Below are positions 20,575 to 48,943 of a DNA stretch of 64,000 nucleotides, piece by piece (positions within the stretch are counted from its first letter, which is position 1; each line of letters opens with the position of its first letter). The stretch is from Deltaproteobacteria bacterium. Its GTDB lineage: Bacteria > Desulfobacterota > Syntrophorhabdia > Syntrophorhabdales > Syntrophorhabdaceae. The translations under genes were made by a program, and so were the position numbers. The stretch is taken from positions 1 through 64,000 of the forward strand of contig JAKORG010000025.1 of the NCBI GenBank assembly GCA_029777945.1, written 5' to 3'. The notes beneath the pieces were generated by a model. That model was not told the DNA's origin, ran no database searches, and worked only from the letters and a program-made list of their open reading frames with translations.

Positions 20575-21840
20575 ATGAAGTTTCATATAAAAACAACGGG
20601 TTGTAGGGCAAATCAGTGGGATTCATACGTGATATCAAATACATTGAACCGCAATGGGTGTGCACAAACAAAACTTGAAGATGCAGACATATGTATTATA
20701 AATGCCTGCACACTCACTGAGGCAGCAGAAAGGGATATCAAGAGATTCATAAATCAATGCAGGGCGAGAAATCCCAAAAGCACCATTGTCCTTGCAGGCT
20801 GTCATGCTCAGGTTTATCCTGAAAAAGGCTTTGGTGCCGATTTTGTGTTAGGTAACAAAGAAAAGTTTAGCATCTTAGAATATATAGGTTTAAAAGAGAG
20901 ATCAATAAAGACCGTAGATGATACTTTTTTAGAAAAGGCAGAGATAGATGGCCTTCCAACAGGAAAAACCCGTTTTTTTCTGAAAATTCAAGACGGTTGT
21001 GATAAGTTCTGTTCATATTGTATTGTTCCCTTTGCAAGGGGTAAAGGGAGAAGTAGAAACGAGGATGAAATATTAATGGCAATGGAATCCCTTTACGAAA
21101 AAGGCGTAAAGGAGGTAGTATTAACAGGTATTGAAATTTCAGCATACAAAGACGAAAAAACAGGGGATGATTTGAACAATCTATTAAAAATCCTTGAAGA
21201 TGCTAAAACCCCGCCCAGAATAAGGTTGAGTTCCATTGATCCCATCTTTATTACAGATAAGTTTATAGACATTATGGCCAGTTCAAAAAAGATAGCCAAA
21301 AGTATACATATCTCTGCACAGAGTTTTTCTGATAAGGTCTTACATCTTATGAAAAGAGAATACACTAAAGCATACCTTGTGGACACAATTAAAAAACTCG
21401 TTAAACGTATTGAAGATATAGGCATTGGTTTAGATATAATTTCAGGTTTTCCATAAGAAGATGAAGATGCCTTTTTGGAAACCTTCAATAGCATTGAAAA
21501 CCTTGATATATACTACCTCCATGTATTTTCTTTTTCTCCAAGGCAAAAGACAGAGGCTGCCTTTATGCCAAATCAGATTCCAGATAGGGTTAAAAAAGAG
21601 AGGGTCAATAAACTACGTATACTGGATAGAAGAAAAAGGATTGACTTTTATGATAGATTTATAGGAAAAAATGCAATTATAATTCCTGAGGGTAAGGTTT
21701 ACAGGGGGAATTTTATTAAAGGATTTACAGATAATTATATCCCTGTGTTTATAAAGCACAAAAAATCATTGGAAAATAGCCTCATAGAGGTTAAAATAAA
21801 GGATATAGAAGACGGTTTTTTAATAGGAGAGTGTTTATAA
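20575..21840 (+). pseudogene. mtaB: tRNA t6A37 methylthiotransferase MtaB, interrupted by in-frame TAA
   Basis: The frame encodes a MiaB/MtaB-type radical SAM enzyme: N-terminal UPF0004 domain with GCRANQWDS, CTLTEAAER and AGCHAQV, the SAM cluster motif CDKFCSYC, and HISAQSFSDKVLHLMKR. At 21454-21456 a TAA replaces the conserved Gly of GFPGE; beyond it the same frame continues unbroken to 21840 with EDEDAFLETF, YYLHVFSFSPR and a TRAM-like tail. Both halves together make the normal length of about 420 codons. It is either a recent nonsense mutation or a sequence error. Ending at the TAA would remove the end of the SAM domain and the TRAM domain. Confidence 0.85.
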
Positions 21841-22153: not shown

Positions 22154-22489
22154 ATGGAAACAGATGAATGGGGTAAAGATCCTCAGGTGAGATTTTTAAG
22201 GCGTGTATTTTCACACATGGAAGAGGCACAAAAAGGCCTTCTCGATAAAATCGGGATTTCCTTATTCGATGAAAGGCTAAAAAGAATAAGAGATGGAGCA
22301 CTTACAATCTTCGAAAGGGCATGGGCAATGGCTTTAAGAAAAGGTATGAATTTAGAAGAGAAAGACCTTGTGCATCTCTATATTTTTTCCCTTGCATATG
22401 TGCTTGAGAGATATAAAATTTCTGTGCCCCAGGACATTTTACCTTTTAATGAAGACATAAAGAAAATTGTTTTTGAGGTCACAAGATGA
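22154..22489 (+). CDS. uncharacterised small helical protein
   Basis: I do not recognise this 111-residue protein. It is rich in charged helices (MEEAQKGLLDKIG, LKRIRDGALTIFERAWAMA, VHLYIFSLAYVLERY), has no signal peptide or cysteines, and no clear coiled coil. It starts 4 bp after yggT and overlaps the next gene by 4 bp (ATGA), so it is probably a real, translationally coupled gene. Confidence 0.6.
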   Translation: METDEWGKDPQVRFLRRVFSHMEEAQKGLLDKIGISLFDERLKRIRDGALTIFERAWAMALRKGMNLEEKDLVHLYIFSLAYVLERYKISVPQDILPFNEDIKKIVFEVTR

Positions 22490-22821
22490 TACGGTTAAGG
22501 CTATTCGGCAGGTGTCGTATATACCATGACCCTGTGAGCCCTGTGCTTAAGGCACCAGCCCAGGTGGGATGGAGCGCCTGGTTCAGGACAATTGACCTTG
22601 TAACCCCTCAGCCATTAAAGGGAGAAGAGCTTTTAAGGCGCACAAAGGGTTGGTGGACCGTAGACCCCACTGAAGTGGCTGAAGTGGTAAAAAAATACGG
22701 TAGGTTGGTTATAGGAGAACATGGAGAGCTCATGGTGGAATTCAACCACAAAAGGGATGCAGAGGCGTTATCGAACGAGCTTAAAGAAAGATTTGGTGAC
22801 CAGGTGCAGCTTGCACCATGA
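22486..22821 (+). CDS. uncharacterised small protein
   Basis: This 111-residue protein is not recognised. It has a basic beginning (MIRLRLFGRCR), a Trp-rich middle (GWSAWFRTID, RRTKGWWTVDPTEV) and a charged C-terminal part (NHKRDAEALSNELKERFGD) that looks like an alpha/beta tail. It is coupled to the previous gene and ends convergent with the molybdenum operon, 20 bp from its last gene. Confidence 0.6.
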   Translation: MIRLRLFGRCRIYHDPVSPVLKAPAQVGWSAWFRTIDLVTPQPLKGEELLRRTKGWWTVDPTEVAEVVKKYGRLVIGEHGELMVEFNHKRDAEALSNELKERFGDQVQLAP

Positions 22822-22841: not shown

Positions 22842-23135
22842 TTACCCCCCTGCGAGGGGATCCATATATATTTCTACAAAAATCTTATCTCCATCAAAAA
22901 CCTTTGTTCTTAGACCTTCCGGAAGATCAAAATGACTTATTCCGTTTATATATACATACCTTATATCATCACCCATTTCACCATTTTCAGTAAATCTTAA
23001 AAAAGGATAAAAGGTAGATAGTTTTTTAAGAACTGCAAGCAAGTCATCATCGGTTCCGTCGAGATTTAAGATAAAAGGAGGCTCAAACAGGTTTTTAATC
23101 TTTAGATTTGATTCTATCTTTACCTTTCTTGTCAT
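22842..23135 (-). CDS. MoaD/ThiS-like ubiquitin-fold sulfur-carrier-type protein
   Basis: The 97-residue protein ends in KIFVEIYMDPLAGG. A C-terminal Gly-Gly after a beta-strand preceded by DGD is the signature of MoaD/ThiS sulfur carriers. It is the last gene of the molybdenum-hydroxylase operon, so it may serve molybdopterin sulfur chemistry or maturation of these enzymes. It is longer than the usual 80-residue MoaD and the rest of the sequence is only loosely similar. GAGAGG lies 7 nt before the ATG. Confidence 0.65.
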   Translation of the reverse strand: MTRKVKIESNLKIKNLFEPPFILNLDGTDDDLLAVLKKLSTFYPFLRFTENGEMGDDIRYVYINGISHFDLPEGLRTKVFDGDKIFVEIYMDPLAGG

Positions 23136-23183
23136 ACTTAAACCTCTCTTTGAACCTCCGTTTATTATATTATACCATTATTC

Positions 23184-23648
23184 TTATTTTTTTGAAGTCT
23201 CTTCCACTGCCTCGATAATTTTTTTATAACCTGTGCATCTGCATATATTGGATGACATGGTTTTTACAATATCTCTTTTTTCCGGTTTTTTATTTCTGTC
23301 GAGAAGGGCTTTTGCGGTTAAAATCATCCCTGAAGTGCAAAATCCACACTGAACCGCGCCTTTTTCCATAAAGGCCTGCTGAAGGGGATGAAGTTTTTCC
23401 CCGTTTTTTAGTCCTTCAATGGTTGTAATAGATGCACCTTCAACTTCAGGGGTGAGTATAAGGCACGATCTCATGGGAGTTCCGTTTACAAGCACTGTGC
23501 ATGCACCGCATGAACCGAGACTACACGACTCTTTTGCCCCTGTCAGGGAAAGCCTTTCCCTTAATGTCTCCAGTAAGGTCTCGTAAGGTTTTACCTGAAG
23601 GGTTACCTTTTCGTTGTTGACATTAAGCATAACCTTGATTGTTTTCAT
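23184..23648 (-). CDS. molybdenum hydroxylase, [2Fe-2S] subunit (set 2)
   Basis: The 154-residue protein has a plant-ferredoxin-type cluster site (CSLGSCGACTVLVNG and RSCL) and a second, helical [2Fe-2S] site (QCGFCTSGM and NICRCTGY), as in the small subunits of xanthine dehydrogenase and 4-hydroxybenzoyl-CoA reductase (HcrC). It carries electrons between Mo and the FAD subunit. It overlaps the FAD subunit gene by 4 bp. Confidence 0.92.
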   Translation of the reverse strand: MKTIKVMLNVNNEKVTLQVKPYETLLETLRERLSLTGAKESCSLGSCGACTVLVNGTPMRSCLILTPEVEGASITTIEGLKNGEKLHPLQQAFMEKGAVQCGFCTSGMILTAKALLDRNKKPEKRDIVKTMSSNICRCTGYKKIIEAVEETSKK

Positions 23649-24592
23649 CTGCCACCTCCTGCGCCTATTCTTTTGAACGCCCTTTTAATCAAAACAGGAA
23701 CCATTTTTTTTCTGTATAATGGTGTCAAAACTGCATTCAAGACAGGTCTGGCATCTTCATAAGCCCAGTCTGCCACTTCGTTTATAGATTTTTCATTGAT
23801 TTCTTTTATTTCGTAAAGATGGGGTGAAGGTCCTATACCTGTTACTGCTACCACTGCAGCATCTTTTTTTACTGTTACTGCAACACCCACAAGGGGATAA
23901 TCTATTGAGCCCCTTACAGTAAGCTTTTCATAGGCGCCTTTTGTCTTTTTTAAAGGAATTATAATCTCTTTTAATATCTCTCCTGGTTTTATAGTGAAGG
24001 GTGAACGGCCGTCTTCGCTGAATAATTTTTCTAACCTCACAGTTCTTTCACCTTTTGCGCTTACAAGCTTTGCCTTTGCATCGATTGTCATAAGGCTCGG
24101 TGCATTATCACCGCAGTAATTTGAAAAACACGATTTTGAATTAGGAACAACATTGCATACCTTACCACCCATTTTAAGGCAGAATCCCCTTGCTGTTCTC
24201 CATTCCAGAGACTTGTTATACTGGAGACACCTGGTGTTCTGGAGAATATTTCCACCAATGGTGCCTCTCATCTGTAAGGTTTTACAGGAAGTTGCCTCCA
24301 ATGATTCAAAAAGGCAGGGAAAGTAATCCTTAATAAAAGGATTTTGCTTCAACTCGAAAAGGGTTATGTTTGGCCCCACAACAAGGGAATTGTTTATCTT
24401 CTTGATGTCTTTTAACCCATCTATACCTTTTAAATCTATTATTACTTTTGGTTGAAGTAGCCTTAACTTAATCAAAGGAACAAGGTCTGTGCCCCCTGCA
24501 AGATAAAACGCATTCCCATCGTGTTTATTGTATAATTCCAGGGCCTCTTCAATAGTTCTCGCCTTTTTATAATCAAACTTAGGTAGAATCAT
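23645..24592 (-). CDS. molybdenum hydroxylase, FAD subunit with extra [4Fe-4S] loop (HcrB-like, set 2)
   Basis: The 315-residue protein has the FAD-binding fold of the xanthine dehydrogenase family (FYLAGGTDLVPLIKLR, MRGTIGGNILQN). In place of the usual short turn it has a cysteine-bearing insertion, Cys122, Cys138, Cys146 and Cys155, with spacings of 15, 7 and 8 residues. These are, as I recall them, the very [4Fe-4S] ligand positions of Thauera 4-hydroxybenzoyl-CoA reductase HcrB. Such a cluster allows low-potential electron transfer. The enzyme could reduce a hydroxy-aryl-CoA or couple substrate oxidation to a low-potential carrier such as ferredoxin. Confidence 0.88.
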   Translation of the reverse strand: MILPKFDYKKARTIEEALELYNKHDGNAFYLAGGTDLVPLIKLRLLQPKVIIDLKGIDGLKDIKKINNSLVVGPNITLFELKQNPFIKDYFPCLFESLEATSCKTLQMRGTIGGNILQNTRCLQYNKSLEWRTARGFCLKMGGKVCNVVPNSKSCFSNYCGDNAPSLMTIDAKAKLVSAKGERTVRLEKLFSEDGRSPFTIKPGEILKEIIIPLKKTKGAYEKLTVRGSIDYPLVGVAVTVKKDAAVVAVTGIGPSPHLYEIKEINEKSINEVADWAYEDARPVLNAVLTPLYRKKMVPVLIKRAFKRIGAGGGR

Positions 24593-26868
24593 CGCTTCCC
24601 TCCCTTGTTTTTTTCTAATAGTTTCAAAACATTATCCGGTGTAAGGGGCAGTTCTTCGAAGAGCATGCCCGTTGCATTTGTAAATGCACAGGCTATGGCG
24701 CTATATGCGTTCATCCTAATTGTGAGACCACCTTCCTTTGCACCAAAAGGACCTTTCGGGTCATTAGAGCTTACAATAATCGTTTCAATATCAGGCATAT
24801 CGCATGCAAGGGGCACTTTATATTCCAGTAAATCAGGATTTAAAAGAAAACCTTTATACCACATATTGCCTTCAAAAATCGTAGCAATCCCTGCCTGTCC
24901 CACAGAACCTTCCATCTGACCCTCCACTGCCATGGGATTGATAGGTCTGCCGCAATCGTGGGCTGCAATAAATTTTGGGACCTTTATCTTTCCCGTCTCC
25001 TCATCTATTTCTATTTCTGCCACTGAAGTGCCGAAGGAATATGTTCCTGCCATCTGTCCTTCTGGTTTCGATACCCATTCCCTCTCAAGGTCAATATCTG
25101 GGAAGAAGGAACCAGTGCCTACTATAGGTTCACCTTTAAAAAATGCCTCCCTTGTTATCCAGGAAATGGGCATCCTTTTATCAGGTGTTTTTACGGAATA
25201 GGCAACGCGGTCCTTTAAATCTATCTCTTCTTCAGGCACACCTAATTTTTTAGAGGCAATGGCAATAATCTTTTTCCTTGCATCTTCACAGGCAGCCTTA
25301 ACGGCATTGGCACCTACATATGCCGCTGCCTGAGAATACGAACCTGGATCGAGGTTTGTAACTTCAGTGTCTGCGTTCACAAGGTTTATATCATCCATGG
25401 GGATACCGAGTACCTCTGAGGCAACTTGAACTGCCAGAGATTCATTTCCCTGACCGTTATCCACCATTCCAGTTATGAGGGTTACCTGACCGTCATCGTT
25501 TATCTTGACATAACACGATGAACCGGAACGGAACCCCATAGGAAAACCGCACATTATGGCCACGCAACCCATACCTATACCTTTATTTCGTGTATGTTTT
25601 TTCCATTTCTTTTTAAAATCTGATTTTTCAGCGGCTTGAATGATTGTGTCTTTTAAGCCGCAACTTATTATCTTTGATTTTGTTGCCGTTAATTCACCGG
25701 CAGTAAGACCGTTTTTCAATCTTACCTCTACGGGGTCAAGCCCTAATTCCTTTGCCATCAGATCCATTTGTGCCTCATTGCCTGCAAGAAAAGCCCTGCC
25801 ATGGCACCCATACATCCCCCTGATACCTTTATTTGTAAATACCCTGTAACCATCGTAGCGGACATTGGGTAGACGATAACATTCTTCATAAACATAATAT
25901 GGTATGGAAGTAGCAATAGGCCCTGTGGAACTATATGCACCACCATCATATATGGTCTTATACTCTTTTGCCACTATTGTTCCATCCTTTTTCATCCCTG
26001 TCTTAACAGTAGCAATAATGTCATGGACCTGTCTTGAACACATTGCATTTTCTTCCCTTGTTAAAACGAGCTTTACAGGTCTACCAGATTTTATGGAAAG
26101 AAGGGATGCTACAAGGTCACCGGGCGCAACTTCAGAACGGCCTCCAAATGCCCCTCCTGAATTTATATGTCTTACCCTTACCCTATTTAGCGGTAATTTT
26201 AAAAGGTTTGAGAGTGCCTTTGCACGGACATGGGGACCTGCATTGGGCATCCAGAGGTCAAGATAACCATTGGCATATGAGGCAACCACTGCATATGGTT
26301 CCATCATGGCATATGCCTCACCTTTTGCCTTAAAGGTATCCTCCCTTACAATATATGCCTTTGCCATTGCCTTATCCACATCGCCCACTTCTATATGGAT
26401 ATGTATGTTTATGTTGTTTTTGTATTGTTCGTGAATCTGCGGTGCTGTGTCTTTCATGGCTTCAACAGGGTCAAAAACCGCTTCCAGTGGCTCATATTCC
26501 ACTTTGATTAATGATAAGGCCTCAATGGCACTTTCTTCGTCTACTGCTGCCACTGCTGCCACATCCTCACCTATGTATCGCACCTTATCTGTAGGTAGCA
26601 TGGCATGATCCTGGGTATACCGGAATACACCCCATTTAACTCCATAGGCATCAAAGCCTGATATAGCAGCCTTGACACCTGGAACCTTAAGGGCTTTTGA
26701 TACATCGATATTTAAAATCTTTGCATGGGGATAGGGGCTCCTCAATACCTTGGCATATAACATACCCGGTAGTTTTAAGTCAGCAGTATACAAAGCCCCA
26801 CCTGTTACCTTTGCATAAGAATCGCTTCTTATAACCCTTTTTCCTACTATCTTTAGGTTTTCATCCAT
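24589..26868 (-). CDS. molybdenum hydroxylase, molybdopterin-binding subunit (set 2)
   Basis: The 759-residue protein has the family features VRYIGEDVAAVAAVDEESA, HINSGGAFGGRSEVAPGD, GIRGMYGCHGRAF and GMVDNGQGNESL. The C-terminal active-site motif, normally GAKGxGE with a catalytic Glu, reads GPFGAKEGGLT, so Leu (about residue 715) replaces the Glu. The start is placed at 26868 because GGGGG lies 6 nt before that ATG; an ATG two codons upstream is too close to it. The first bases overlap nothing, but the upstream subunit ends only 10 bp earlier. Confidence 0.88.
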   Translation of the reverse strand: MDENLKIVGKRVIRSDSYAKVTGGALYTADLKLPGMLYAKVLRSPYPHAKILNIDVSKALKVPGVKAAISGFDAYGVKWGVFRYTQDHAMLPTDKVRYIGEDVAAVAAVDEESAIEALSLIKVEYEPLEAVFDPVEAMKDTAPQIHEQYKNNINIHIHIEVGDVDKAMAKAYIVREDTFKAKGEAYAMMEPYAVVASYANGYLDLWMPNAGPHVRAKALSNLLKLPLNRVRVRHINSGGAFGGRSEVAPGDLVASLLSIKSGRPVKLVLTREENAMCSRQVHDIIATVKTGMKKDGTIVAKEYKTIYDGGAYSSTGPIATSIPYYVYEECYRLPNVRYDGYRVFTNKGIRGMYGCHGRAFLAGNEAQMDLMAKELGLDPVEVRLKNGLTAGELTATKSKIISCGLKDTIIQAAEKSDFKKKWKKHTRNKGIGMGCVAIMCGFPMGFRSGSSCYVKINDDGQVTLITGMVDNGQGNESLAVQVASEVLGIPMDDINLVNADTEVTNLDPGSYSQAAAYVGANAVKAACEDARKKIIAIASKKLGVPEEEIDLKDRVAYSVKTPDKRMPISWITREAFFKGEPIVGTGSFFPDIDLEREWVSKPEGQMAGTYSFGTSVAEIEIDEETGKIKVPKFIAAHDCGRPINPMAVEGQMEGSVGQAGIATIFEGNMWYKGFLLNPDLLEYKVPLACDMPDIETIIVSSNDPKGPFGAKEGGLTIRMNAYSAIACAFTNATGMLFEELPLTPDNVLKLLEKNKGGKR

Positions 26869-26878
26869 ACACATCCCC

Positions 26879-29167
26879 CTAAATTTTTTTTTCTCCCTCT
26901 TTTGCCTTAATAGCTGCAAGCACCTTCTCAGGCGTAATAGGCAAATCTTTTATCCTTACACCAATGGCATCGTAAATAGCATTGGCAATAGCAGGTGCTG
27001 TTGGCACAAGTCCTGGTTCTCCAATGCCCTTTGCACCAAATGGACCTTCCTTCTCCTCTGTTTCTACTATAACAGGTTGAATGGGAGGCACATCCTTGAC
27101 AGTGGGTATCTTGTAATCAAGGAAATTTCCGTTCATCAATCTTCCATCTTTGTAGATCATCTTTTCGCCGAGGGCATAGCCTATACCCTGCAGACCGCCA
27201 CCGTAAATCTGGCCTTCAAGAAGAAGGGGATTTATGGCCTTACCCACATCGTGGGCAGCTATGTAGTTTAAAATCTTCACCTTTCCCGTTTCTTTATCCA
27301 CCTCAACTTCTACACCATGGGTACCATAAGCATAAGATGCTGAGAGATTACCTTTAAATTCCTTATCAAAGTTTTCGTTGGCAGGGTCATAAAAATACTC
27401 AGCCATGAGCATCTTACCGCCAGTGGTATAGTGTATTCTCCTTAATACCTTGCCAAGGGGTATACTCTTTTCAGAATTTTTTGTTGAGAATATAATGCTG
27501 TCCTTGATATCGAGGTTTGAAGGTTCTTCTTCGAAGATCTTCGATGCTGCATCGAGAATCTGTTGCCTAATCCTATTGGCAGCACCGAGGGCAGCGTTTC
27601 CTGCAACGAATGTGGTTCTGCTTGCGTGAACGCCCACATCCCATGGACATACCTCTGTATCGTTATTGATTACATTCACATCTTCTATGGGAATACCTAA
27701 AACCTCTGCAACGATCTGGGCAATTACTGTATCAGAACCTTGACCTATATCGCTTGCACCGGTAAATACATCGACTTTGCCGAAATCGTCCATTTTTATA
27801 ATTGTGCCACAACCATCGGATTTATAAACACGGGCACCACCACCTACGTGTATTAATGATGCCATACCCACGCCCCTTCCTTTATCCTTTCCTCTTTTTT
27901 CTTTCCAGTTAAGCCTTTTTGCAACCTCTTCGATACATTCCTTCATACCACAGGATGTTATCTTGAACCTCTGTGGTGTAATTTCACCAGGTTCGTTGGC
28001 ATTTATCCTCCTTATTTCAAGGGGATCAATATCAGCCTTTTCGGCAAGCTGGTCGAGGTTTGATTCTATTGCAAATGTAGCCTGGGGATTACCGTATCCT
28101 CTCATAGCCTGGCAGTATGTATTATTTGTATAAACACATTTGGCAGTGTATTTTACATTTGGCACCTTGTAAAGGGATGATATGGGCAGCATCATAACAG
28201 ATGGCGTTGTAGCACCCCACGATGTATATGCACCGTTATCTAATATCATTTCCACTTCCCTGAATGTGAGTCTTCCTTCTTTGTCGCAACCTTGTGATAT
28301 TTTCGTTATGGTGCACTGCCGCGGGGAGGTGGCAAAGAATTCCTCTTCCCTTGTAAATATTATCTTTACAGGTTTTTTTGTCTTAAGGGCAAGTAAAATG
28401 GCGATATATTCATATGCATAGGTGTCGAGTTTACTTCCAAATCCGCCGCCTATTACAGCCTGGATAATCCTTACACGCCTATTCTTTAATCCAAAGGCAT
28501 TTAGTGCCTCTACAAAATCGTTCTGGGCAAGGGAGGGAATCTGTGTGTTACTATATAAAGTAAGGTTATTCTGCATATCAAAATGGGCAATGCAGCCGCT
28601 TGTTCCAAGGCAGCAGTGTGTAACCCATTGCGTAGAAAATGTATCCTCTGCTATGTAAGCGGATTCATCTTTTGCCTTTTCCACATCTCCGCATACAAGT
28701 CTCCAGGGCAGTTTAAGGACATTGGATTTTGCCTCCTCGTGGAGTATGGGTGCACCTTCTTTCATGGCCTCTAATGGGTCAAATATACCGGGAAGCTCTT
28801 CGTATTCTACTTCAATTAAGGATAGGGCCTCTTCTGCTATTTCTTGGCTTGTAGCTGCAACAGCGGCAATTTCATCGCGTATGGATAGAACCTTTTTTGA
28901 CTTTAAAGGTGGATTGTCTTTCATAAAACCAATTCTAAAATTGGGAGGCATATCCTTTGCTATTACAATTGCCTTTACACCTGCCAGCTTTTCTGCCTTT
29001 GATGTATCAATCTTTAAGATGTTTGCATGGGGATATTTACTGTATAATATTTTTCCGTATAGCATCCCAGGTAGTTTTATATCCTGGATATATTGTGCAA
29101 CACCTGCTGCCTTAAGGGGTGCATCTAATTTCGGTATTTTTTTTCCAACTACTTTAAGGTTTTCCAT
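26879..29167 (-). CDS. molybdenum hydroxylase, molybdopterin-binding subunit (set 1)
   Basis: The 762-residue protein shows VIGGGFGSKLDTYAYE, GASDIGQGSDTVIAQIVAE, VCPWDVGVHASRTTFVAGNA, and an intact active-site motif GPFGAKGIGEPGL with the catalytic Glu. It should hydroxylate or dehydroxylate an N-heterocyclic or aryl-CoA substrate using water-derived oxygen. In the pathway proposed for the operon this is the best candidate for indoleacetate ring hydroxylation. It differs from the set-2 subunit throughout, so the two are old paralogues, not a recent duplication. Confidence 0.92.
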   Translation of the reverse strand: MENLKVVGKKIPKLDAPLKAAGVAQYIQDIKLPGMLYGKILYSKYPHANILKIDTSKAEKLAGVKAIVIAKDMPPNFRIGFMKDNPPLKSKKVLSIRDEIAAVAATSQEIAEEALSLIEVEYEELPGIFDPLEAMKEGAPILHEEAKSNVLKLPWRLVCGDVEKAKDESAYIAEDTFSTQWVTHCCLGTSGCIAHFDMQNNLTLYSNTQIPSLAQNDFVEALNAFGLKNRRVRIIQAVIGGGFGSKLDTYAYEYIAILLALKTKKPVKIIFTREEEFFATSPRQCTITKISQGCDKEGRLTFREVEMILDNGAYTSWGATTPSVMMLPISSLYKVPNVKYTAKCVYTNNTYCQAMRGYGNPQATFAIESNLDQLAEKADIDPLEIRRINANEPGEITPQRFKITSCGMKECIEEVAKRLNWKEKRGKDKGRGVGMASLIHVGGGARVYKSDGCGTIIKMDDFGKVDVFTGASDIGQGSDTVIAQIVAEVLGIPIEDVNVINNDTEVCPWDVGVHASRTTFVAGNAALGAANRIRQQILDAASKIFEEEPSNLDIKDSIIFSTKNSEKSIPLGKVLRRIHYTTGGKMLMAEYFYDPANENFDKEFKGNLSASYAYGTHGVEVEVDKETGKVKILNYIAAHDVGKAINPLLLEGQIYGGGLQGIGYALGEKMIYKDGRLMNGNFLDYKIPTVKDVPPIQPVIVETEEKEGPFGAKGIGEPGLVPTAPAIANAIYDAIGVRIKDLPITPEKVLAAIKAKEGEKKI

Positions 29168-29169
29168 GT

Positions 29170-29634
29170 TTACCTCCCTGCTGCTACTGATTTAATAGCA
29201 TCTATAATCATCACATAGCCTGTGCATCTGCAGAGATTTCCTTCGATTGCCTCTTTTATATCATCTTCTGTGGGATTTGGTTTTTCATCGAGAAGCGCCT
29301 TGGCAGACATAATCATACCTGGGGTGCAAAAACCACACTGGACAGCGCCCTTTTCAATAAATGCCTTTTGCAGGACATGGAGTTCACCGTTTTTTGATAA
29401 TCCTTCAATAGTGGTGATGTTTTTTCCTTCTGCCTCAAGGACAGGATAAATACATGAGTTTACAGCCTTTCCTTCAATGATTACAGTGCAGGCACCGCAT
29501 TCACCGTAACCGCATCCTTCTTTTGTCCCTGTTAGCCCAAGAACCTCTCTTAAAAGATACAGAAGTGTCCACTTTGGCTCTACTTCTACTGTTACTTCCT
29601 CATTGTTCAGAGTAAATGTGATTTCTTTTCTCAT
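29170..29634 (-). CDS. molybdenum hydroxylase, [2Fe-2S] subunit (set 1)
   Basis: The 154-residue protein has both [2Fe-2S] sites: CGYGECGACTVIIEG with NSCI, and QCGFCTPGM with NLCRCTGY. It is the electron-transfer subunit of the set-1 enzyme and lies between its FAD and Mo subunit genes, 2 bp before the latter. Confidence 0.93.
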   Translation of the reverse strand: MRKEITFTLNNEEVTVEVEPKWTLLYLLREVLGLTGTKEGCGYGECGACTVIIEGKAVNSCIYPVLEAEGKNITTIEGLSKNGELHVLQKAFIEKGAVQCGFCTPGMIMSAKALLDEKPNPTEDDIKEAIEGNLCRCTGYVMIIDAIKSVAAGR

Positions 29635-29643
29635 AAATACCCC

Positions 29644-30621
29644 CTACCATAGTCTTTCTGGATAAATTTCTTCATCTGGTCTTACTATCCTGTCAATTGA
29701 TTTCATAAGTGCCCTTTTTACGAGGACCTTTATCATCTCTTTTCTATACCATGCCTCACCCCTTATGCTGTCCCTCGGTTGTGCTTCACTGGCTGCGATT
29801 TCACCGACCTCCTCAAAAAGCTCAATGGATATGATTTTTCCAGCGAGTGCCTCTTCAGCCTTTTTTGCCCTTATTGGTTTCGGTGCAACAACGCCCATGG
29901 CAATCCTTGCTTCCTCGCATTTTAGTCCTTCATCCTTCAATTGCATAAGGATGTTAGAAATGCTGTCAATGGTACACAGTAAATCTCTGCATCGTATTTG
30001 ACTGTCTTTATCCAGGCTTATAGTTATCCTTGTGGCAACTCCCAGAATGGGTAAGTCCATTGCCTCCCTTCTTGTGTGTTTTATATAAGCAGAGCCTGTA
30101 TTTTCTTTTAATCTGGGCATTGAAAACTCTTTGAGTATCTCATCTTTTTCAAGAACCGTCTTTCCTGGTCCTAAAAAGAATTCATTCAAATCCACTTCCC
30201 GTTCGCCCTTTGTCCCTATTATAACTGCCTTTGCATCGAAAATAAGTAAAGGACAGGCAGTATCTGCGGAAGGCGCTGCATTACAGATGTTTCCACCGAT
30301 AGTAGCTACATTTCTAATCTGTTTCGAACCGAGACGACTCGTTGCATCTGTTAATGCAGAATAGTATTTTTTTATGTATTCGTTTTTGTCAATATCATCA
30401 TGGGTTACTAAGCTGCCTATTTTCAATCCATCTTTGGTGTCGATGTTACGTAATTCAGAAATATTCCTCAAAGATATAAGATGCTGGGGAGATATCTTTT
30501 TCTGTCTTAGTTGCACCATAACATCAGTGCCACCGGCAATAAACTTTGCGTTGTCAAGGCCTGACATAATTTTTATGGCCTCTTCTATTGAATTTGGCTT
30601 ATAGTATTCAAAGCTTCTCAC
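29644..30621 (-). CDS. molybdenum hydroxylase, FAD subunit (set 1)
   Basis: The 325-residue protein has KFIAGGTDVMVQLRQKK and RNVATIGGNICNAAPSADT, the typical FAD loops of the XDH medium subunit, and no extra cysteine loop. It therefore resembles ordinary XDH/CoxM-type subunits and should pass electrons to a usual acceptor. The start is GTG after GGAGG. Confidence 0.92.
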   Translation of the reverse strand: MRSFEYYKPNSIEEAIKIMSGLDNAKFIAGGTDVMVQLRQKKISPQHLISLRNISELRNIDTKDGLKIGSLVTHDDIDKNEYIKKYYSALTDATSRLGSKQIRNVATIGGNICNAAPSADTACPLLIFDAKAVIIGTKGEREVDLNEFFLGPGKTVLEKDEILKEFSMPRLKENTGSAYIKHTRREAMDLPILGVATRITISLDKDSQIRCRDLLCTIDSISNILMQLKDEGLKCEEARIAMGVVAPKPIRAKKAEEALAGKIISIELFEEVGEIAASEAQPRDSIRGEAWYRKEMIKVLVKRALMKSIDRIVRPDEEIYPERLW

Positions 30622-30636: not shown

Positions 30637-31941
30637 TTAATCTCTATTATCAAACACCCTTTTTGTTTTTCTTTCAGAGCGGGGAAGGGAACCGTAATCA
30701 ACAATCTCCACCTCACAGCTTACCATTATCTGTTTCTTTATGGCATCTTCTATTTTCTTTCTTACCTGTTTGTCAAGCTCATCTGAAGGTTTTAATTCAT
30801 GGGCCCTTTCAACCTTTACCAACATGTTATCCTTTCCACTTTTTTGATCTCTGGATAGGATTATCTGAAATTCGCTGCCTACCTCTTTTATCTTTGAGAG
30901 TATTTCATCAATATGGCTTGGGTAGATGTTCACTGCCCTGAAGATAAACATATCATCAGAACGGCCCATAATTCTGTCGTGCCTTGGCATAAGACTACCG
31001 CAAGGACATTCACCGGGGATAAGCCTTGTCAAATCCCTTGTCCTGTAACGAATAAGGGGCGCTGCCTCTTTTCTCAATGTGGTTACAACCATCTCACCCA
31101 CCTCACCTTCAGGCACAGGTTCCAGTGTTTCAGGGTTGAGTATTTCCAGTATATAGTAATCTGCCCAGTAATGAATACCTGTATGATAGCGGCAGTCAAG
31201 GTCTGTCCCTGGACCGTATAGTTCGGTCATGCCAGGTATATCAAATAGCTGGTCATAGGCAACACCTGAAAGCTCTGAAATCCTTTTTCTCATAGCATCG
31301 CTTGAACGTTCTGAACCGAATATTAATTTCTTTAATGCAATCTTTCCCCTCAAGCCCCTTTTATCAATCTCCTCTGCCATTAAAAGCCCCATAGAGGCAG
31401 TACATGTCATGACAGTTGTTCCAAAGTCCTCAAGAAACTGACACTGCATGTCAATATTGCCAGGGCCTATGGGGATTGACATGGCGCCAAATCGTTCACA
31501 GCCATTTTGAAAACCCCACCCTGCAGTCCATACGCCGTAGCCCACTGCAATCTGGATTCTGTCCTCTACGGTGCAATCTGCATATGCATAACAGCGGGCA
31601 AACATATTTGCCCAGTCATCCACATCCTTTGCTGTGTAACATAAGACTTTTCTTTTTCCTATAGTGCCACTTGAGGCATGGATACGGATAACCTTTTCCA
31701 TAGGCACACTCAATAGGGGAAAGGGATATCCCTCCTGAAGGTCTTTGCTTGTCGTAAATGGTAGCTTTTTAATATCATCCAGTGATTGGATGTCCTTTGG
31801 TTTTACACCTGCCTCATCTAATTTCTTTCTATAATGAGGTGAACCGTTGTATGCATGGTTAACTGTCCATTTTAAACCTTCAAGTTGAAGTGCCTTTAGC
31901 TCTGCTTCTGTTTTTACAGTTGCATCAAAAGGTCTTTTCAT
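30637..31941 (-). CDS. phenylacetate-CoA ligase family enzyme (IaaB/PaaK-like)
   Basis: The 434-residue AMP-forming ligase shows IHASSGTIGKRKVLCYT (phosphate loop), YGVWTAGWGFQNGCERFG, DIPGMTELYGPG, RYRTRDLTRLI and GRSDDMFIFRAVNIYPSHI, as in PaaK. It activates an aryl-acetate-like acid to its CoA ester. In Aromatoleum a relative (IaaB) is an indoleacetate-CoA ligase. The start is ATG 31941, 6 nt after AGGAGG; the GTG at 31962 contains that site within its first codons and is rejected. Confidence 0.88.
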   Translation of the reverse strand: MKRPFDATVKTEAELKALQLEGLKWTVNHAYNGSPHYRKKLDEAGVKPKDIQSLDDIKKLPFTTSKDLQEGYPFPLLSVPMEKVIRIHASSGTIGKRKVLCYTAKDVDDWANMFARCYAYADCTVEDRIQIAVGYGVWTAGWGFQNGCERFGAMSIPIGPGNIDMQCQFLEDFGTTVMTCTASMGLLMAEEIDKRGLRGKIALKKLIFGSERSSDAMRKRISELSGVAYDQLFDIPGMTELYGPGTDLDCRYHTGIHYWADYYILEILNPETLEPVPEGEVGEMVVTTLRKEAAPLIRYRTRDLTRLIPGECPCGSLMPRHDRIMGRSDDMFIFRAVNIYPSHIDEILSKIKEVGSEFQIILSRDQKSGKDNMLVKVERAHELKPSDELDKQVRKKIEDAIKKQIMVSCEVEIVDYGSLPRSERKTKRVFDNRD

Positions 31942-31974
31942 ATGTATCCTCCTATAATCCACATATAATTAATT

Positions 31975-33690
31975 TTATTTTGTCTCCCTTATCTTTCTTG
32001 TTTCTTCCCAATTTATTTCCAGTGTTGAAGGATTTATTATTACACCGTAATCATTTTTTGCGCTTTCTATGCTAATATAGCCTTCTATTACATCGTTTAG
32101 AACCATCTCAGGATCTCTCTCAAAAGGATTTCCATATCCACCACCACCAGGTGCATCAATGGTTACCACATCACCTGGTTTTAACTGTGTTAGACCATAT
32201 GGATTTCCTGGCTTATTGTTTACAAGAAACTGGCCTTTTCTGCCTGGTTTTCCCCCAAATAGACCTTCTGCAGGATACACGTATCTTCCGGCCTGTATTC
32301 CAAGATTTACAGGTGGTATAGGTGCATAGTCATCGCTGGGAACTCTAAAGACCTCTCTTTTGCCAAGACCACCTTTTGTCTTTCCTGGACCACCAGAGTC
32401 TGGTAAGAGTTCTCTTTTTTCAACAATGAGGGGTGTATCGTTTTCAAAAATTTCAACGGGTGTGTTTGCACCGTTTGCAGGAAATATATAAACATAATTT
32501 CCATCGTTTTTAGCCCCTGCACCCATGCCTTCACCCCTTATTATGACAGAATGCCAGGGTTTACCGTCTTTTCTTCTACCGTAGAATACATTCATTGCTG
32601 CAGGTGTTCCTCCTGAACCTGCAATTACCTTATCAGGCAAAACCTCTGATAATGCCCTGTATATTATTTCTGTCATAAAGTGACCCACCTGCATACGGGC
32701 TGCAACTGCTGCTGGAAACTTGCAGTTCACAACAGTGCCTTCAGGTGCATATAGTTTTATGGGCTTTGCACATCCATCATTATTGGGGATATCAGGGGCA
32801 AACATACTTTTAATAGCCATAAATACATATGCATAGGTAAAGTTAAATACTACATTTCCACCCCAGTTTACCTGAGGTGATGAGCCATCGAGATCCACAA
32901 TAATATCAGTATCTTTTACCTCGACCTTTGCATTTATAATTATATCTTCATTTCCTTTAGTCTGTTCTATTATACCTTTTGCCTGATACACACCTTTAGG
33001 AATCTTTGCTATCTCTTCTCTCATGCTCTTTTCAGTGACCCCGATTATCTGATTTGCCAGATCATCGAGATTTTCAAGATTATTATCTTTTAACATCTGA
33101 CAGATTTTCTCAGAACACACATAATTTGCTGCAATCTGAGATCTTATGTCGCCTATTACCTCGTCAGGGGTTCTAACATTCCATTTTATTAAGTCTAAAA
33201 CAGATTGATTCAGAACCCCTCTGTCATATAATTTTACAAAAGGAATAAAAAGTCCTTCCTCGAATACATCGTGATTATCCGATGCAACCCTTCCTCCTAT
33301 GTCAGAATGGTGAAATACACAGGCAGTAAATGCAACGAGTTTATCTTTATAAAAAATAGGGCTCATAACACACACATCGTTTAGATGCCCTGCAAGGGCC
33401 CATGGGTCATTAGTAATGAATACATCCCCTGGTCTGTAATAATCAGGTGGAAATTTGTTTACAAGATTTTTTATACCCAGTGCCATTGCACCTGATTGGC
33501 CAGGGGTAGCAAATGTGCCCTGTGCAAGTTCTCTACCAAATCTGTCTGTAAACATGCAGGTGTAATCGTGGGCATCTCTCAGAAGGCTTGAAAAGGTTGT
33601 TCTGGCAACGCTTGAATCTGCTTCATCTACTATGGAAATGAGCCTGCGCCACAGAATCTCCAGTGTTATGGGATCAAAAACAACTGCCAT
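31975..33690 (-). CDS. hydantoinase/oxoprolinase beta subunit (HyuB)
   Basis: The 571-residue protein has the HyuB features NDPWALAGHLNDVCVMSPIF, FHHSDIGGRV, GTPAAMNVFYGRR, LPDSGGPGKTKGGLG and DAPGGGGYGNPFERDP. With HyuA it forms an ATP-dependent lactam/cyclic-amide hydrolase or a related carboxylase. In the indoleacetate pathway this pair opens the 2-oxindole ring. It starts at TAATG with the hyuA stop, with GGAGGTGA in front. Confidence 0.9.
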   Translation of the reverse strand: MAVVFDPITLEILWRRLISIVDEADSSVARTTFSSLLRDAHDYTCMFTDRFGRELAQGTFATPGQSGAMALGIKNLVNKFPPDYYRPGDVFITNDPWALAGHLNDVCVMSPIFYKDKLVAFTACVFHHSDIGGRVASDNHDVFEEGLFIPFVKLYDRGVLNQSVLDLIKWNVRTPDEVIGDIRSQIAANYVCSEKICQMLKDNNLENLDDLANQIIGVTEKSMREEIAKIPKGVYQAKGIIEQTKGNEDIIINAKVEVKDTDIIVDLDGSSPQVNWGGNVVFNFTYAYVFMAIKSMFAPDIPNNDGCAKPIKLYAPEGTVVNCKFPAAVAARMQVGHFMTEIIYRALSEVLPDKVIAGSGGTPAAMNVFYGRRKDGKPWHSVIIRGEGMGAGAKNDGNYVYIFPANGANTPVEIFENDTPLIVEKRELLPDSGGPGKTKGGLGKREVFRVPSDDYAPIPPVNLGIQAGRYVYPAEGLFGGKPGRKGQFLVNNKPGNPYGLTQLKPGDVVTIDAPGGGGYGNPFERDPEMVLNDVIEGYISIESAKNDYGVIINPSTLEINWEETRKIRETK

Positions 33691-35783
33691 TATCTCACCT
33701 CCTTAATATCTATCCAGAGGAATCCGTATTCATCCATCCTGACATGGGCATCTTCACCTACCACAAGGGTTGATTCCCTTTCCTCTATTATTGCTGGCCC
33801 CCTAAAACTTGCCTCAGGGAAAAGTCTGTATCTATCATACACTGTGTATGGTATAAAATCCTTTGCAATGGGTGAATAGGCCAGTCTTTTCCCTTTTATA
33901 GCATCTTCTAAAGATTGACCATTCTTTCTTGTAAGTTTTGGTAGTTTAAGAAGCTTTACAGGCAGAGACGCCCTTACTTTGAAGTTTATAAACTCCACCT
34001 CTGAATCAGGGTAAGTTCTACCGTATAGTTTTTCATAACTCTCATCAAATAGTCTTCTGATGAGTTCCTTTGAAAATGTGCCAAAATCTCCCTCTGGCGC
34101 AGATATATTCACTTCTGACCCTTGACCCACAAATCTCATATCAAGGGAACGTTCAAAAGAAATGTAATCACCAGATTCCTTTTTTAATATATGGAGTGCC
34201 TCATTTTCCATCTCTTTAAAAAGTCTTTCAATCTCGTGGAAATCTACCTGACTTAAAGATACCTTGTGGCTTCTCAGTAGATCAAATGCCCTTGGTACAG
34301 TAAAGAAACCCATGGCTGAACCAACCCCTGCATTTGGTGGCACAATTATGCGTGGTGCTTCGAGTTTTTTTGCAAGACCATATGTATGGACTGGACCGGC
34401 TCCACCAAAGGCAGCTATTGTAACAATTTTTGGGTTTCCTCCTTTTTCTGCAATATGTGTTTTTGCTGCAGCTGCCATGGTTTCATTGATGAGATCGTGT
34501 ATGCCCCATATGGCCTGGACAAAGGATACACCCAGTGGTTTTGCTATCTTCTCTTCTACCCCACGCCTTGCACTTTCTTTATCTAATTTCATCTCTCCGC
34601 CAAGAAAATAGTTTTCGTCAAGGTAACCGAGGAGTAAATCTGCATCTGTTACGCACGGTTCAGTCCCCCCTCTTGCATAACAGATAGGGCCTGGGTCAGC
34701 ACCTGAACTTTCAGGTCCTACCTGGAGTGTACCGAATTTACTTACCTTTGCAATGCTTCCACCACCTGCACCTATCTCCATTAAATCCACAACAGGCACC
34801 TGGATGGTAAGACCACTGCCTTTCATAAATCTCTGAACACGACCTACCTCAAAGGTAGGCACAACGCCTGCTATACCTTTCTGTATTAAACATGATTTTG
34901 CTGTTGTGCCACCCATGTCAAAGCAGAACATCTCTGGTATATTGAAAAGCTTGCCATAATACTGACCTGCAATAACAGCAGCAGTAGGCCCTGATTCGAT
35001 AATACGAACAGGAAACTCTGCTGCAGTTTCAACAGAAGTAATACCACCACTGCTTAACATGATAAACAGTTTTCCTTTAAAACCAATGGAGGAAAGTCTT
35101 CCTGAAAGCTTTGAAAGATAACGACCTGTAAGTAGTTTTACATAGGCATTTGTAACAGTCGTGCTCGTTCTCTCATATTCTTTGATCTGGGGAAGCACCT
35201 TATAAGAAATGGAAGTAGATAACCAAGGTGCCTCTTCTTTTATAATTTCCTCTATCATTTTTTCGTGCACAGGATTTTCAAATGAATTTATTAAACACAC
35301 AGCAATAGATTCCACTCCCATTTCTATTAATGTTTTTACAACCCTTTTTGCCTCCTCTTTATCAAGGGGTTTTAGCACTTTACCGTCACTTCTTATCCTT
35401 TCATCTACTTCAAGACGTAACCTCCTTGGAACCAGTGGTTTGGGAAATTCGGCAAATATGTCATAAGGTGCATAACGGATCTCCCTTCCTATCTCGAGGA
35501 TGTCTCTAAAGCCTTTTGTTGTAATTAGCCCTGTTTTTGCACCTTTTCTCTCTATGATCGAATTTATCACAAGGGTTATTCCGTGAATAATCTCATCGAG
35601 TTTCTCCACAAAATTAGGTGTTGATTTTTCAAGTATTCTTATACCCTCTTCTACTGCATCTGAAGGGTCTTTTGGGGTTGTTAGGCATTTGGCTGTTTTT
35701 ATCTCACCTGTTTTATCGTCAATTAAAACAAAATCCGTAAAGGTTCCGCCTATGTCACATCCCAGACGAAAATACTTCTCCAT
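33690..35783 (-). CDS. hydantoinase/oxoprolinase alpha subunit (HyuA)
   Basis: The 697-residue protein has the ASKHA-type nucleotide-binding motifs RLGCDIGGTFTDFVLID and FCFDMGGTTAKSCLI, then AAFGGAGPVHTYGLA, as in HyuA/5-oxoprolinase A. It should supply the ATP-dependent activation for ring opening with HyuB. The start is set at 35783, where GGAGG sits 4 nt before ATG and the protein begins MEKYFRLG; a longer frame to 35834 would run into the mutase gene. Acetophenone/acetone carboxylases are related but use additional subunits that are absent here. Confidence 0.9.
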   Translation of the reverse strand: MEKYFRLGCDIGGTFTDFVLIDDKTGEIKTAKCLTTPKDPSDAVEEGIRILEKSTPNFVEKLDEIIHGITLVINSIIERKGAKTGLITTKGFRDILEIGREIRYAPYDIFAEFPKPLVPRRLRLEVDERIRSDGKVLKPLDKEEAKRVVKTLIEMGVESIAVCLINSFENPVHEKMIEEIIKEEAPWLSTSISYKVLPQIKEYERTSTTVTNAYVKLLTGRYLSKLSGRLSSIGFKGKLFIMLSSGGITSVETAAEFPVRIIESGPTAAVIAGQYYGKLFNIPEMFCFDMGGTTAKSCLIQKGIAGVVPTFEVGRVQRFMKGSGLTIQVPVVDLMEIGAGGGSIAKVSKFGTLQVGPESSGADPGPICYARGGTEPCVTDADLLLGYLDENYFLGGEMKLDKESARRGVEEKIAKPLGVSFVQAIWGIHDLINETMAAAAKTHIAEKGGNPKIVTIAAFGGAGPVHTYGLAKKLEAPRIIVPPNAGVGSAMGFFTVPRAFDLLRSHKVSLSQVDFHEIERLFKEMENEALHILKKESGDYISFERSLDMRFVGQGSEVNISAPEGDFGTFSKELIRRLFDESYEKLYGRTYPDSEVEFINFKVRASLPVKLLKLPKLTRKNGQSLEDAIKGKRLAYSPIAKDFIPYTVYDRYRLFPEASFRGPAIIEERESTLVVGEDAHVRMDEYGFLWIDIKEVR

Positions 35784-35805
35784 ATAACCTCCGTTTTTTA
35801 CATTT

Positions 35806-37434
35806 TTAGAACAGACTCGGCTCTTTGAATTCACCGAAAATCTGTCTAAATACGTTTGTCATTTTACCTAAGGTTGCATACACCTTACAACAATCAACAA
35901 GGTAAGGCATCACATTTTTGCCTGCCCTGGTTGCACTTTCTAACTCTTTCAATGTCCTTTTTACATCCCTTTCTGATCTCTCTCTCTTTACCTGTTTCAA
36001 GCTCTCTATTTGTTTTTTTGCTGATTCGTAGTTATATTCGTGGAGTTCTACTTCCATGGATTCACCTTCTTTATAAATATTCACACCCACCTTTAGTAGT
36101 TCCCCTGATTCAATACCCTTTTCTATTTCATATGCCTGACGTGCCACCATCCTCTGTATGTAGCCATCTGATACTGCCTTTATGATGCCACCGTAGTTTT
36201 CAATTTTAAACATCTCCTCTTCAATCTTTTCTTCCATCTGTTTTGTTAGGGTCTCCATAAAATAGCTTCCTGCAAGGGGATCAACAGTATCCCTCAGACC
36301 TACCTCGTCCATTAAAAGCTGTAATGTTCTTAGTGATATCAATGCTGAACGGGGAGTTGGTATTGTATATGCCTCATCATAACTGCAAAGGGCCGTTGTC
36401 TGGGCACCGGCAAGGGCTGCAACAAGGGCATAATAGGCACCCCTCATGATGTTGTTTTCAGGTTGGGCCTTAGTTAAACCATAGCCACCGCCACCGAAAA
36501 GACCCCTTAAAAACATATTCTGCGGTTTTTTAACACCGTATCTTTCTTTTAAATTCCTTGCCCATATTTTTCTTGCTGCCCTGAATTTTGCAATCTGCTC
36601 CCACATATTTCCAAATACATTGAGATTAAAAGAGAACCTTCCTACAAAATCATCTATATCATAGCCCCTTGCAAGGACATTATCTATATATGCATTGGCA
36701 ATAAGAATTGCATAGGCAATTTCCTGGGCAGGGGTTGCCCCTGATTCCCTGATGTGATAACCGCAGACACTAACAGGATTTGTGCGGGGCATGACCTTCA
36801 TAGAGTATTCTATGGTATCTCCTATAAGCTTTACAGCAGGCTCCACTGGAAAGATCCATGCCCCCCTGCCAATCATCTCTTTAAGTATGTCATTTTGCGG
36901 TGTTGCGGAAATCATCTTTGGGTCATAGCCGTATTTTTCTGCCACAGCCTGATACATGGCAAGCATGACAGATGCCACTGCATTTATGGTAAGACCGGTT
37001 CCTATTTTATCGAGACGAATGTCTTTAAAGGCAATTTCAAAGTCCCTGAGCGTATCAACAGCCATACCTACCCTTCCTACCTCGCCTTCTGCCATCTCGT
37101 CGTCAGAATCATAGCCCATCTGAGTGGGAAGGTCGAAGGCTACATTTAGACCTGTTTGCCCGTGGGAGATCATTAATTTAAATCTTTCATTGGTTTCTTC
37201 CGGTGTCCCAAAACCTGTATACTGCCTTGTTGTCCATGCCCTTGAACGATATCCAAGGGGGTGTATACCCCTTGTAAAAGGATATTGACCCGGGTCTGCC
37301 AGATCCATTTCATAATTAAAGCCTATCTCTTCCAGGTCCTTTGGTGAGTATAAAGGTTTTACGTGGATACCTGACTCGTATATGACATCCAAAATTTGGT
37401 CTTTTTCATCTTTTATATATCGAGCTACAGCCAT
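35806..37434 (-). CDS. B12-dependent acyl-CoA mutase, large subunit (methylmalonyl-CoA mutase family, IaaG-like)
   Basis: The 542-residue protein is the catalytic barrel of the methylmalonyl-CoA mutase family. Tyr72, Arg190 and His227 match Tyr89, Arg207 and His244 of Propionibacterium MCM (constant offset 17), so the substrate probably carries a free carboxylate. The otherwise conserved HxQTSG active-site loop is replaced by LFGGGG (residues 312-317), and TQSLHTN by AQTTALC. A widened pocket for a bulky aryl group would explain this. I propose (2-aminophenyl)succinyl-CoA mutase; an ordinary methylmalonyl-CoA mutase is the alternative. Gln in place of Arg207, expected for isobutyryl- or 2-hydroxyisobutyryl-CoA mutases, is absent. 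Confidence 0.85.
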   Translation of the reverse strand: MAVARYIKDEKDQILDVIYESGIHVKPLYSPKDLEEIGFNYEMDLADPGQYPFTRGIHPLGYRSRAWTTRQYTGFGTPEETNERFKLMISHGQTGLNVAFDLPTQMGYDSDDEMAEGEVGRVGMAVDTLRDFEIAFKDIRLDKIGTGLTINAVASVMLAMYQAVAEKYGYDPKMISATPQNDILKEMIGRGAWIFPVEPAVKLIGDTIEYSMKVMPRTNPVSVCGYHIRESGATPAQEIAYAILIANAYIDNVLARGYDIDDFVGRFSFNLNVFGNMWEQIAKFRAARKIWARNLKERYGVKKPQNMFLRGLFGGGGYGLTKAQPENNIMRGAYYALVAALAGAQTTALCSYDEAYTIPTPRSALISLRTLQLLMDEVGLRDTVDPLAGSYFMETLTKQMEEKIEEEMFKIENYGGIIKAVSDGYIQRMVARQAYEIEKGIESGELLKVGVNIYKEGESMEVELHEYNYESAKKQIESLKQVKRERSERDVKRTLKELESATRAGKNVMPYLVDCCKVYATLGKMTNVFRQIFGEFKEPSLF

Positions 37435-37448
37435 GTTGCCTCCTCCTT

Positions 37449-37856: not shown

Positions 37857-37905
37857 GGCATCCTCCAAATACAGTTTTTATCAAAGAGATGTAAAATTAA
37901 ATTCA

Positions 37906-46822: not shown

Positions 46823-46866
46823 AGTTAGAATTGTTTCATGTCAAAAAGCAGGAGGGGTACTTAATC

Positions 46867-48900: not shown

Positions 48901-48901
48901 G

Positions 48902-48919
48902 GATTACCATAAGGTAATC
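48902..48919 (+). other. small perfect hairpin between hutU and ftcD
   Basis: GATTACC (48902-48908) and GGTAATC (48913-48919) form a 7-bp stem with an ATAA loop, directly after the hutU stop. No strong U-run follows. It may stabilise the hutU message or reduce read-through into ftcD. Confidence 0.4.
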
Positions 48920-48943
48920 TATAAAAAAATATATGAGGTATGT

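Follow-up and report, generated by a model that had tools for sequence, protein, structure and literature searches.

The 97-amino-acid protein encoded at positions 22842-23135 on the minus strand of the window (the whole 64,000-nucleotide stretch of Syntrophorhabdaceae DNA that was analysed), here called MoaDq, is probably a thiocarboxylate sulfur carrier that is charged by a MoeB-like E1 and a NifS and is tied to the maturation of one molybdenum reductase, encoded by the genes moL2, moM2 and moS2; we give this reading a rough probability of 0.55. In the mechanism that we propose, the MoeB/ThiF-type E1 of the genome would adenylate Gly97 of MoaDq, a NifS-type cysteine desulfurase would supply sulfur to form a C-terminal thiocarboxylate, and MoaDq would hand this sulfur over during maturation of the moL2-moM2-moS2 enzyme. 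Candidate acceptors are the molybdopterin dithiolene (with or without MoaE), the sulfido ligand at molybdenum and a cluster-assembly step. The fold, the Gly-Gly terminus, the link to a single type of molybdenum enzyme and the neighbourhoods of the relatives were computed, and we infer the charging steps from the superfamily and from the genes that lie next to the relatives.

The MoaDq reading frame runs from an ATG to a TAA, its C-terminus reads YMDPLAGG, and its start lies 48 nt past the stop of moS2, the [2Fe-2S] small subunit of molybdenum enzyme 2 (23184-23648; PF01799, PF00111). A ribosome-binding-like AGAGAGG (23143-23149, read from the sequence) is situated 7 nt 5' of the ATG. The promoter-like pattern TTCAAA-16-TATAAT between moS2 and MoaDq (23169-23196, minus strand) represents at most a possible internal promoter, and two such patterns were seen in the region versus 1.7 expected, which is not above chance. 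The sequence-only reading had MoaDq closing a molybdenum operon, and it is indeed the last gene of its minus-strand run, the gene at 22486-22821 being convergent, but the description was incomplete, as two complete molybdenum hydroxylase sets and several further enzymes precede it on the same strand. Enzyme 2 comprises, besides moS2, the FAD subunit moM2 with an extra four-Cys loop (23645-24592; TIGR03195 at 221 bits, below cut-off, and an alignment to 1rm6_B) and the molybdopterin subunit moL2 (24589-26919), the gene that MoaDq co-occurs with; enzyme 1, assigned by profile matches, comprises the molybdopterin subunit moL1 (26879-29167), the [2Fe-2S] subunit moS1 (29170-29634) and the FAD subunit moM1 (29644-30621). 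The rest of the run encodes a phenylacetate-CoA-ligase-like protein (PaaK-like, and IaaB-like by context; 30637-31962; TIGR02155 at 415 bits, below cut-off), a HyuB of the hydantoinase B family (31975-33690; PF02538), a caprolactamase-alpha-like HyuA of the hydantoinase A type (33690-35834; NF050156 at 517 bits, below cut-off), the large subunit of a B12-dependent acyl-CoA mutase (35806-37434; TIGR00641) with its B12-binding small subunit (37449-37868; TIGR00640), and a member of the acyl-CoA dehydrogenase family (37906-39045; profile match). Elsewhere in the window, a MiaB-type methylthiotransferase-like frame recognized by eye (20575-21840, plus strand) appears to be broken into ORFs of 293 and 121 amino acids, and a histidine-degradation-like set, also recognized by eye (urocanase, formiminotransferase, imidazolonepropionase and cyclodeaminase-like), occupies 46831-51743 on the plus strand, opposite to that of the MoaDq operon.

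Single-sequence searches with MoaDq came back empty, with no match in Pfam at E 0.1, none in the PDB (phmmer, E 10) and no relative confirmed in a scan of the genome contigs, so that alignments were needed. In a set of 60 genomes, the window's own included, 31 gave a match at E <= 0.01, 25 of them strong (E < 1e-20) and six weak only. Since the search also located it in 24 of the remaining 59 genomes (E < 1e-20, 45-68% identity, nearly full length), MoaDq is, on the strength of this conservation, a real gene and no chance ORF. Family models place it at a distance: TIGR01687 (moaD_arch, NCBIfam) reaches MoaDq at E 0.039 and 14.4 bits against a cut-off of 49.5, and PF02597 scores a single family member above its cut-off (G040, 24.1 versus 22.5 bits), MoaDq itself being without a match. 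A profile built from 23 relatives returned seven weak matches in the PDB, four of them from the ThiS/MoaD/CysO superfamily (2l52, E 0.019; 2m19, 0.094; 4n6e, 0.14; 3dwg, 0.37). An AlphaFold2 model based on a 26-sequence alignment shows a b-b-a-b-b arrangement with a mean pLDDT of 86.8 and a pTM of 0.79, the last residues being less sure (block mean 66). With this model, Foldseek found the Haloferax protein HVO_2177 (2m19, E 2.8e-5) as the best match and a SAMP1 homologue (2l52, 2.3e-4) as the second. The VIA comparison gave the MoaD-related 1v8c_B (Z 10.6, rmsd 1.8, 79 residues aligned), the Urm1 chain 7q5n_H (Z 10.5, rmsd 2.6, 91 aligned), the mycobacterial molybdopterin (MPT) synthase chain 6jbz_B (Z 9.8, rmsd 2.3, 78 aligned), CysO 4n6e_B (Z 9.0, rmsd 2.7, 83 aligned) and MoaD 1fm0_D (Z 8.2, rmsd 2.8, 75 aligned), where differences of under 1 Z count as ties and, from about Z 8, unrelated proteins that share this common fold start to appear. 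A predicted beta-grasp protein of the ThiS/MoaD/CysO superfamily is thus well supported by structure and less so by sequence. The three traits put forward in the sequence-only reading have accordingly held up: the MoaD/ThiS-like beta-grasp is what the structure prediction and its top matches of the MoaD, SAMP, Urm1 and CysO types gave, the PLAGG ending is present within the tail MDPLAGG, and the protein is longer than MoaD, at 97 amino acids versus the 83-residue open frame of the other MoaD of the genome.

The moL2-moM2-moS2 enzyme is, as judged from its alignments, a 4-hydroxybenzoyl-CoA-reductase-like molybdoenzyme of the xanthine-oxidase family with a [4Fe-4S]-type loop. Against 1rm6_B, the beta chain of 4-hydroxybenzoyl-CoA reductase, moM2 aligns at E 6.6e-49; the alignment spans the extra loop, and the four Cys of the loop line up with those of 1rm6_B, which serve as [4Fe-4S] ligands in that enzyme. 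All three subunits miss the equivalog cut-offs of 4-hydroxybenzoyl-CoA reductase (moL2 598 versus 994.55 bits, moM2 221 versus 404.55, moS2 151 versus 257.8). The four-Cys loop implies that enzyme 2 may act as a reductase, and 2-aminobenzoyl-CoA is a candidate substrate.

The position beside a molybdenum enzyme, to which the sequence-only reading had drawn attention, recurs in other genomes. In 19 of the 25 genomes with a strong match, MoaDq is the gene immediately 3' of moS2 and has the same orientation, and the gap, measured in 17 cases, spans 48-246 nt; in the other six it meets a contig edge (G008, G026) or lies elsewhere (G006, G038, G040, G042). The two genes also tend to occur together. 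With moL2 orthologues defined by 65% identity or more (in 395 genomes the identities drop from 65% to 55% with none between), 45 genomes divide into 15 with both genes, one with MoaDq only, three with moL2 only and 26 with neither (p 3e-8, a value that, like those below, overstates independence because the genomes are related, and that reflects counts rather than a phylogenetic test). The MoaDq-only genome is G008, in which the contig begins just upstream, and the moL2-only genomes are G013 and G017, in which the contigs end there, and G016. Among 395 genomes of the phylum, nine have both, three MoaDq only (G008, G092, G253), eight moL2 only and 375 neither (p 9e-12), with G017, whose moL2 is split, falling below the threshold and being counted among the last. 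At the family level, all five MoaDq families are found among the eight moL2 families (p about 1e-6, on the assumption that there are 89 families, the highest family label printed). Both genes are present but unlinked in seven genomes (G006, G038, G040, G042, G127, G396 and G143, in which moS2 is cut by the contig end), which suggests a functional tie beyond shared transcription. The association is incomplete on the side of the enzyme: eight of the 17 moL2 genomes of the 395-genome set are without MoaDq, in three of them with contigs that end close by (G013, G153, G274), and genome searches found no MoaDq despite the moL2 enzyme in G016, G055, G197, G221, G361 and G378. In three loci (L030, L033, L042), moL2-moM2-moS2-MoaDq is accompanied by three other genes, and no iaa-type genes are present in the stretch seen. 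These three, 5' of the enzyme genes, encode glyoxalase/epimerase-like, saccharopine-dehydrogenase-like and class III aminotransferase proteins (L042:4653-7508, with relatives in L030, L033 and L028) and are absent from the window operon, the domain assignments coming from a scan that covered the three in L042 only.

Among the alternatives, the one that survives best is that MoaDq is simply another MoaD, acting as the small subunit of MPT synthase with the MoaE of the genome, so that its place by a molybdenum enzyme would reflect co-regulation, as for the MoaD linked to AOR, a pattern established in the accessible sections of Iyer et al. (2006; PMC1779556). We consider this rather unlikely, even if several observations speak for it. 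Chains of MPT synthase are among the closest structural matches of MoaDq, and MoaE is encoded in the window genome (C37, unlinked to MoaDq) and in 13 of the 16 MoaDq genomes of the 45-genome set. The MoaE gene of the window genome directly follows a nifU-nifS pair, whereas in family f3 the corresponding pair, 71-74% identical, follows MoaDq instead (three of three f3 genomes searched). In G022, MoaE and MoaDq are about 1 kb apart on opposite strands; the two genes are convergent with a BacA gene between them, and they were not counted as an operon. Against this interpretation stands the independent distribution of MoaE and MoaDq, the 45 genomes comprising 13 with both, three with MoaDq only, 21 with MoaE only and eight with neither (p 0.72). 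The family search yielded no MoaE match at E <= 0.001 in G038, G040 and G042, all of which carry both MoaDq and moL2, and the MoaE of the window genome as query gave E 0.26 in G038, nothing in G040 and, in G042, E 1.5e-10 to a sequence that lies at the end of a contig and is interrupted by two stop codons. That query itself is far from the Pfam model (47 bits versus a cut-off of 23.4), so that the f3 genomes could encode a MoaE too divergent to be detected. The three genomes (L141-L143, L223) have full-length molybdenum hydroxylase genes and no detectable intact MoaE. Because the distribution of MoaE is independent and three MoaDq genomes are without a detectable intact copy, MoaDq is unlikely to be just the usual, obligatory MoaD subunit of MPT synthase. 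The genome moreover has another MoaD, the 83-residue open frame, two genes from an AOR gene, which rules out MoaDq as its only one.

The suggestion of the sequence-only reading that the protein could supply the terminal sulfur of Moco gained no specific support. XdhC_C is found in 38 of the 45 genomes and, within the order, in 34 of 35, irrespective of the presence of MoaDq, and two proteins exceed the cut-off in the window genome; terminal sulfuration thus already has its usual agent, and it was rejected as the special job of MoaDq. The other MoaD and the two XdhC proteins of the genome also speak against the sulfur-carrier reading, as they make the need for a further carrier questionable. 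Other MoaD-like proteins, 92-99 amino acids long as called and without a Pfam match, were noticed at L048:2728-3027 (tail LIGGG), L051:9464-9742 (LLGGG), L053:3351-3629 (MLGGG) and L054:6138-6437 (LMAGG); their neighbours are other molybdenum hydroxylases (L048, L051, L054) or AMP-binding ligases (L051, L053).

The charging of MoaDq proposed in the sulfur-carrier reading would require an activating enzyme, and a MoeB/ThiF-type E1, for which the sequence-only reading had proposed a search, is present in the genome, though not adjacent to MoaDq. It is the only one of its type there (contig C76), is clearly homologous to MoeB (1jw9, E 4e-48), scores below the NCBIfam cut-offs and has RecD-like and phosphofructokinase genes as neighbours. 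A link to sulfur supply is seen in the three f3 genomes, where NifU and NifS genes come after MoaDq. Adjacency to an E1 is seen in two distant members of the family: only 18 nt in G092 and 11 nt in G127 separate MoaDq from a ThiF-family E1, and NifS-like, NifU-like and PALP genes are close by. In a third, G253, the run reads PALP, NifS-like, NifU-like, MoaDq, HcyBio, NIL-ferredoxin, E1-like, NifS-like and FdhD. The NifS and NifU assignments in these genomes, and the E1 of G127 and G253, are by similarity, and the others, including the E1 of G092, are by Pfam. These members are 29-46% identical to MoaDq and 32-48% identical to their best match in the family alignment (A2), and at such low identity they show the setting of the wider family rather than the function of the window gene. 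Seven loci (L028, L029, L035, L036, L037, L071, L073) have an E1 about 5.5-9 kb from MoaDq, a distance not treated as linkage; the sole case scanned was L028, where the three genes scanned between the two look unrelated.

The same neighbourhoods of PALP, HcyBio, NIL-ferredoxin, NifU-like, NifS-like and E1 genes would also suit a general CysO-like sulfur carrier for cysteine, homocysteine or Fe-S supply that was captured beside a molybdenum operon and has no private role. This we regard as unlikely, since the moL2-moM2-moS2 neighbour is kept in those 19 of 25 strong members and the seven genomes with unlinked copies have both, and since G042, of family f3, has a different MoaD-type carrier apart from MoaDq. 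That other carrier, at L218:4936-7046, is a MoaD-like protein extended at its C-terminus, and it forms one run with an E1 bearing a rhodanese-like part (recognized by eye) and a JAB protease; this run resembles known sulfur-carrier operons.

A carrier of the proposed kind depends on its tail, and the sequence-only reading had held that loss of the Gly-Gly in homologues would refute it. The tail is GG in all 25 strong members and in 31 of a set of 34 proteins (three as PLGGG), which consists of the 25 together with L062, L069, two tandem copies in L080, L079, L081, G253, G092 and G127; it was lost in one clade of three proteins that end in DGH, namely L079 (Desulfosarcina cetonica), L081 and the first tandem copy of L080 (both Syntrophobacteraceae MAGs). 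For these three, a thiocarboxylate on a Gly-Gly tail is impossible. When the complete records of L079 and L081 were searched, each gave a single match. In the tree, which resolves some tips only and places the long rows (the second MoaD of the genome, ThiS and weak homologues) unsurely, the DGH proteins cluster (support 93/90), the L080 copy with the GG tail is their neighbour (100/95), and this grouping suggests one duplication and one tail loss. In the D. cetonica draft, moL2 is split into three ORFs (L079:6298-8600), perhaps by assembly or sequencing errors.

The DGH clade still has its gene adjoining the molybdenum enzyme, for which a non-catalytic assembly factor is the natural reading. 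Extended to the whole family, this would mean that MoaDq helps to assemble the moL2 enzyme, or joins it as an extra subunit, by way of its beta-grasp surface and with no thiocarboxylate, and the six residues M54, G55, D57, N64, H68 and F69, invariant in 26 of 26 rows of the A2 alignment and as conserved as the tail, would fit such a surface role. The persistence of Gly-Gly in 31 of the 34 members, among them the three distant ones in E1 clusters, argues against it, and we consider it improbable for MoaDq. An extended form of the sulfur-carrier reading would accommodate both kinds of tail: MoaDq would be a private, MoaE-independent carrier for one class of aryl-CoA molybdenum reductases, its thiocarboxylate directly sulfurating the enzyme or its cofactor, and a Desulfosarcina/Syntrophobacteraceae sub-lineage would have turned a duplicated carrier into a GG-less assembly factor; as a whole, this scheme is put forward tentatively and is doubtful. 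Conjugation of MoaDq to lysines in the manner of SAMP or Urm1, both among its closest structures, was also raised by the sequence-only reading and is very improbable, as a scan of some of the genes around the strong members revealed no JAB-type protease and the sole JAB belongs to the other MoaD cluster of G042.

A dedicated carrier for such an enzyme, if true, would add a maturation step to the aryl-CoA molybdoenzymes by which anaerobes degrade aromatic compounds. Genomes that combine the carrier and the molybdenum enzyme with no detectable intact MoaE directly raise the question of how molybdopterin is made there. In L080, the two tandem copies, one ending in GG and one in DGH, are a natural pair in which the carrier can readily be compared in the presence and absence of a sulfur-binding tail.

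When compared with known systems, the window operon resembles the clusters for anaerobic indoleacetate degradation, a likeness of gene types rather than a gene-by-gene comparison with Aromatoleum. The iaa cluster presumably includes a hydantoinase-type pair, IaaCE. As described in the accessible part of the report (PMC8360864), that cluster encodes the CoA ligase IaaB, the mutase IaaGH and the dehydrogenase IaaF, and the window run at 30637-39045 (minus strand) likewise brings together a CoA ligase, a B12 mutase pair and an acyl-CoA dehydrogenase; unlike the iaa cluster, the window run adds two molybdenum enzyme sets and MoaDq. The moL2-moM2-moS2 enzyme shares with 4-hydroxybenzoyl-CoA reductase (1rm6) the extra loop of the FAD subunit with four aligned Cys, and differs from it in its scores, none of the three subunits reaching the equivalog cut-off. 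Proteins of the CysO type (3dwg, 3dwm, 4n6e) are, like MoaDq, beta-grasp carriers of about 90 amino acids (VIA Z 8.1-9.0), and the likeness extends to a nearby PALP gene in the distant members only; unlike for CysO, the neighbours scanned in the strong members included neither a JAB protease nor a gene of the cysteine-synthase type. SAMP1 and its homologues (2l52, 2m19, 4hro, 3po0) gave the best Foldseek matches and have the same kind of tail, whereas the MoaDq gene has a molybdenum enzyme in its neighbourhood. No account of a MoaD-like protein with this enzyme type surfaced in the literature among the matches listed, subscription papers being mostly outside the scope, and the accessible sections of the gene-neighbourhood survey of Iyer et al. 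(2006; PMC1779556) name no type found with xanthine-oxidase-family reductases. In the same sections, a MoaD adjoining the tungsten aldehyde ferredoxin oxidoreductase appears as an established pattern, and it is this AOR-linked MoaD that MoaDq parallels in its MoaD fold, its place beside one kind of Mo/W enzyme and its patchy distribution, while lacking a PF02597 match. The tie of a MoaD to tungsten aldehyde oxidoreductases is thus already in print (PMC1779556, in the part accessible), and what appears to be new here, judging by the matches listed, is the partner, a 4-hydroxybenzoyl-CoA-reductase-like enzyme of the xanthine-oxidase family.
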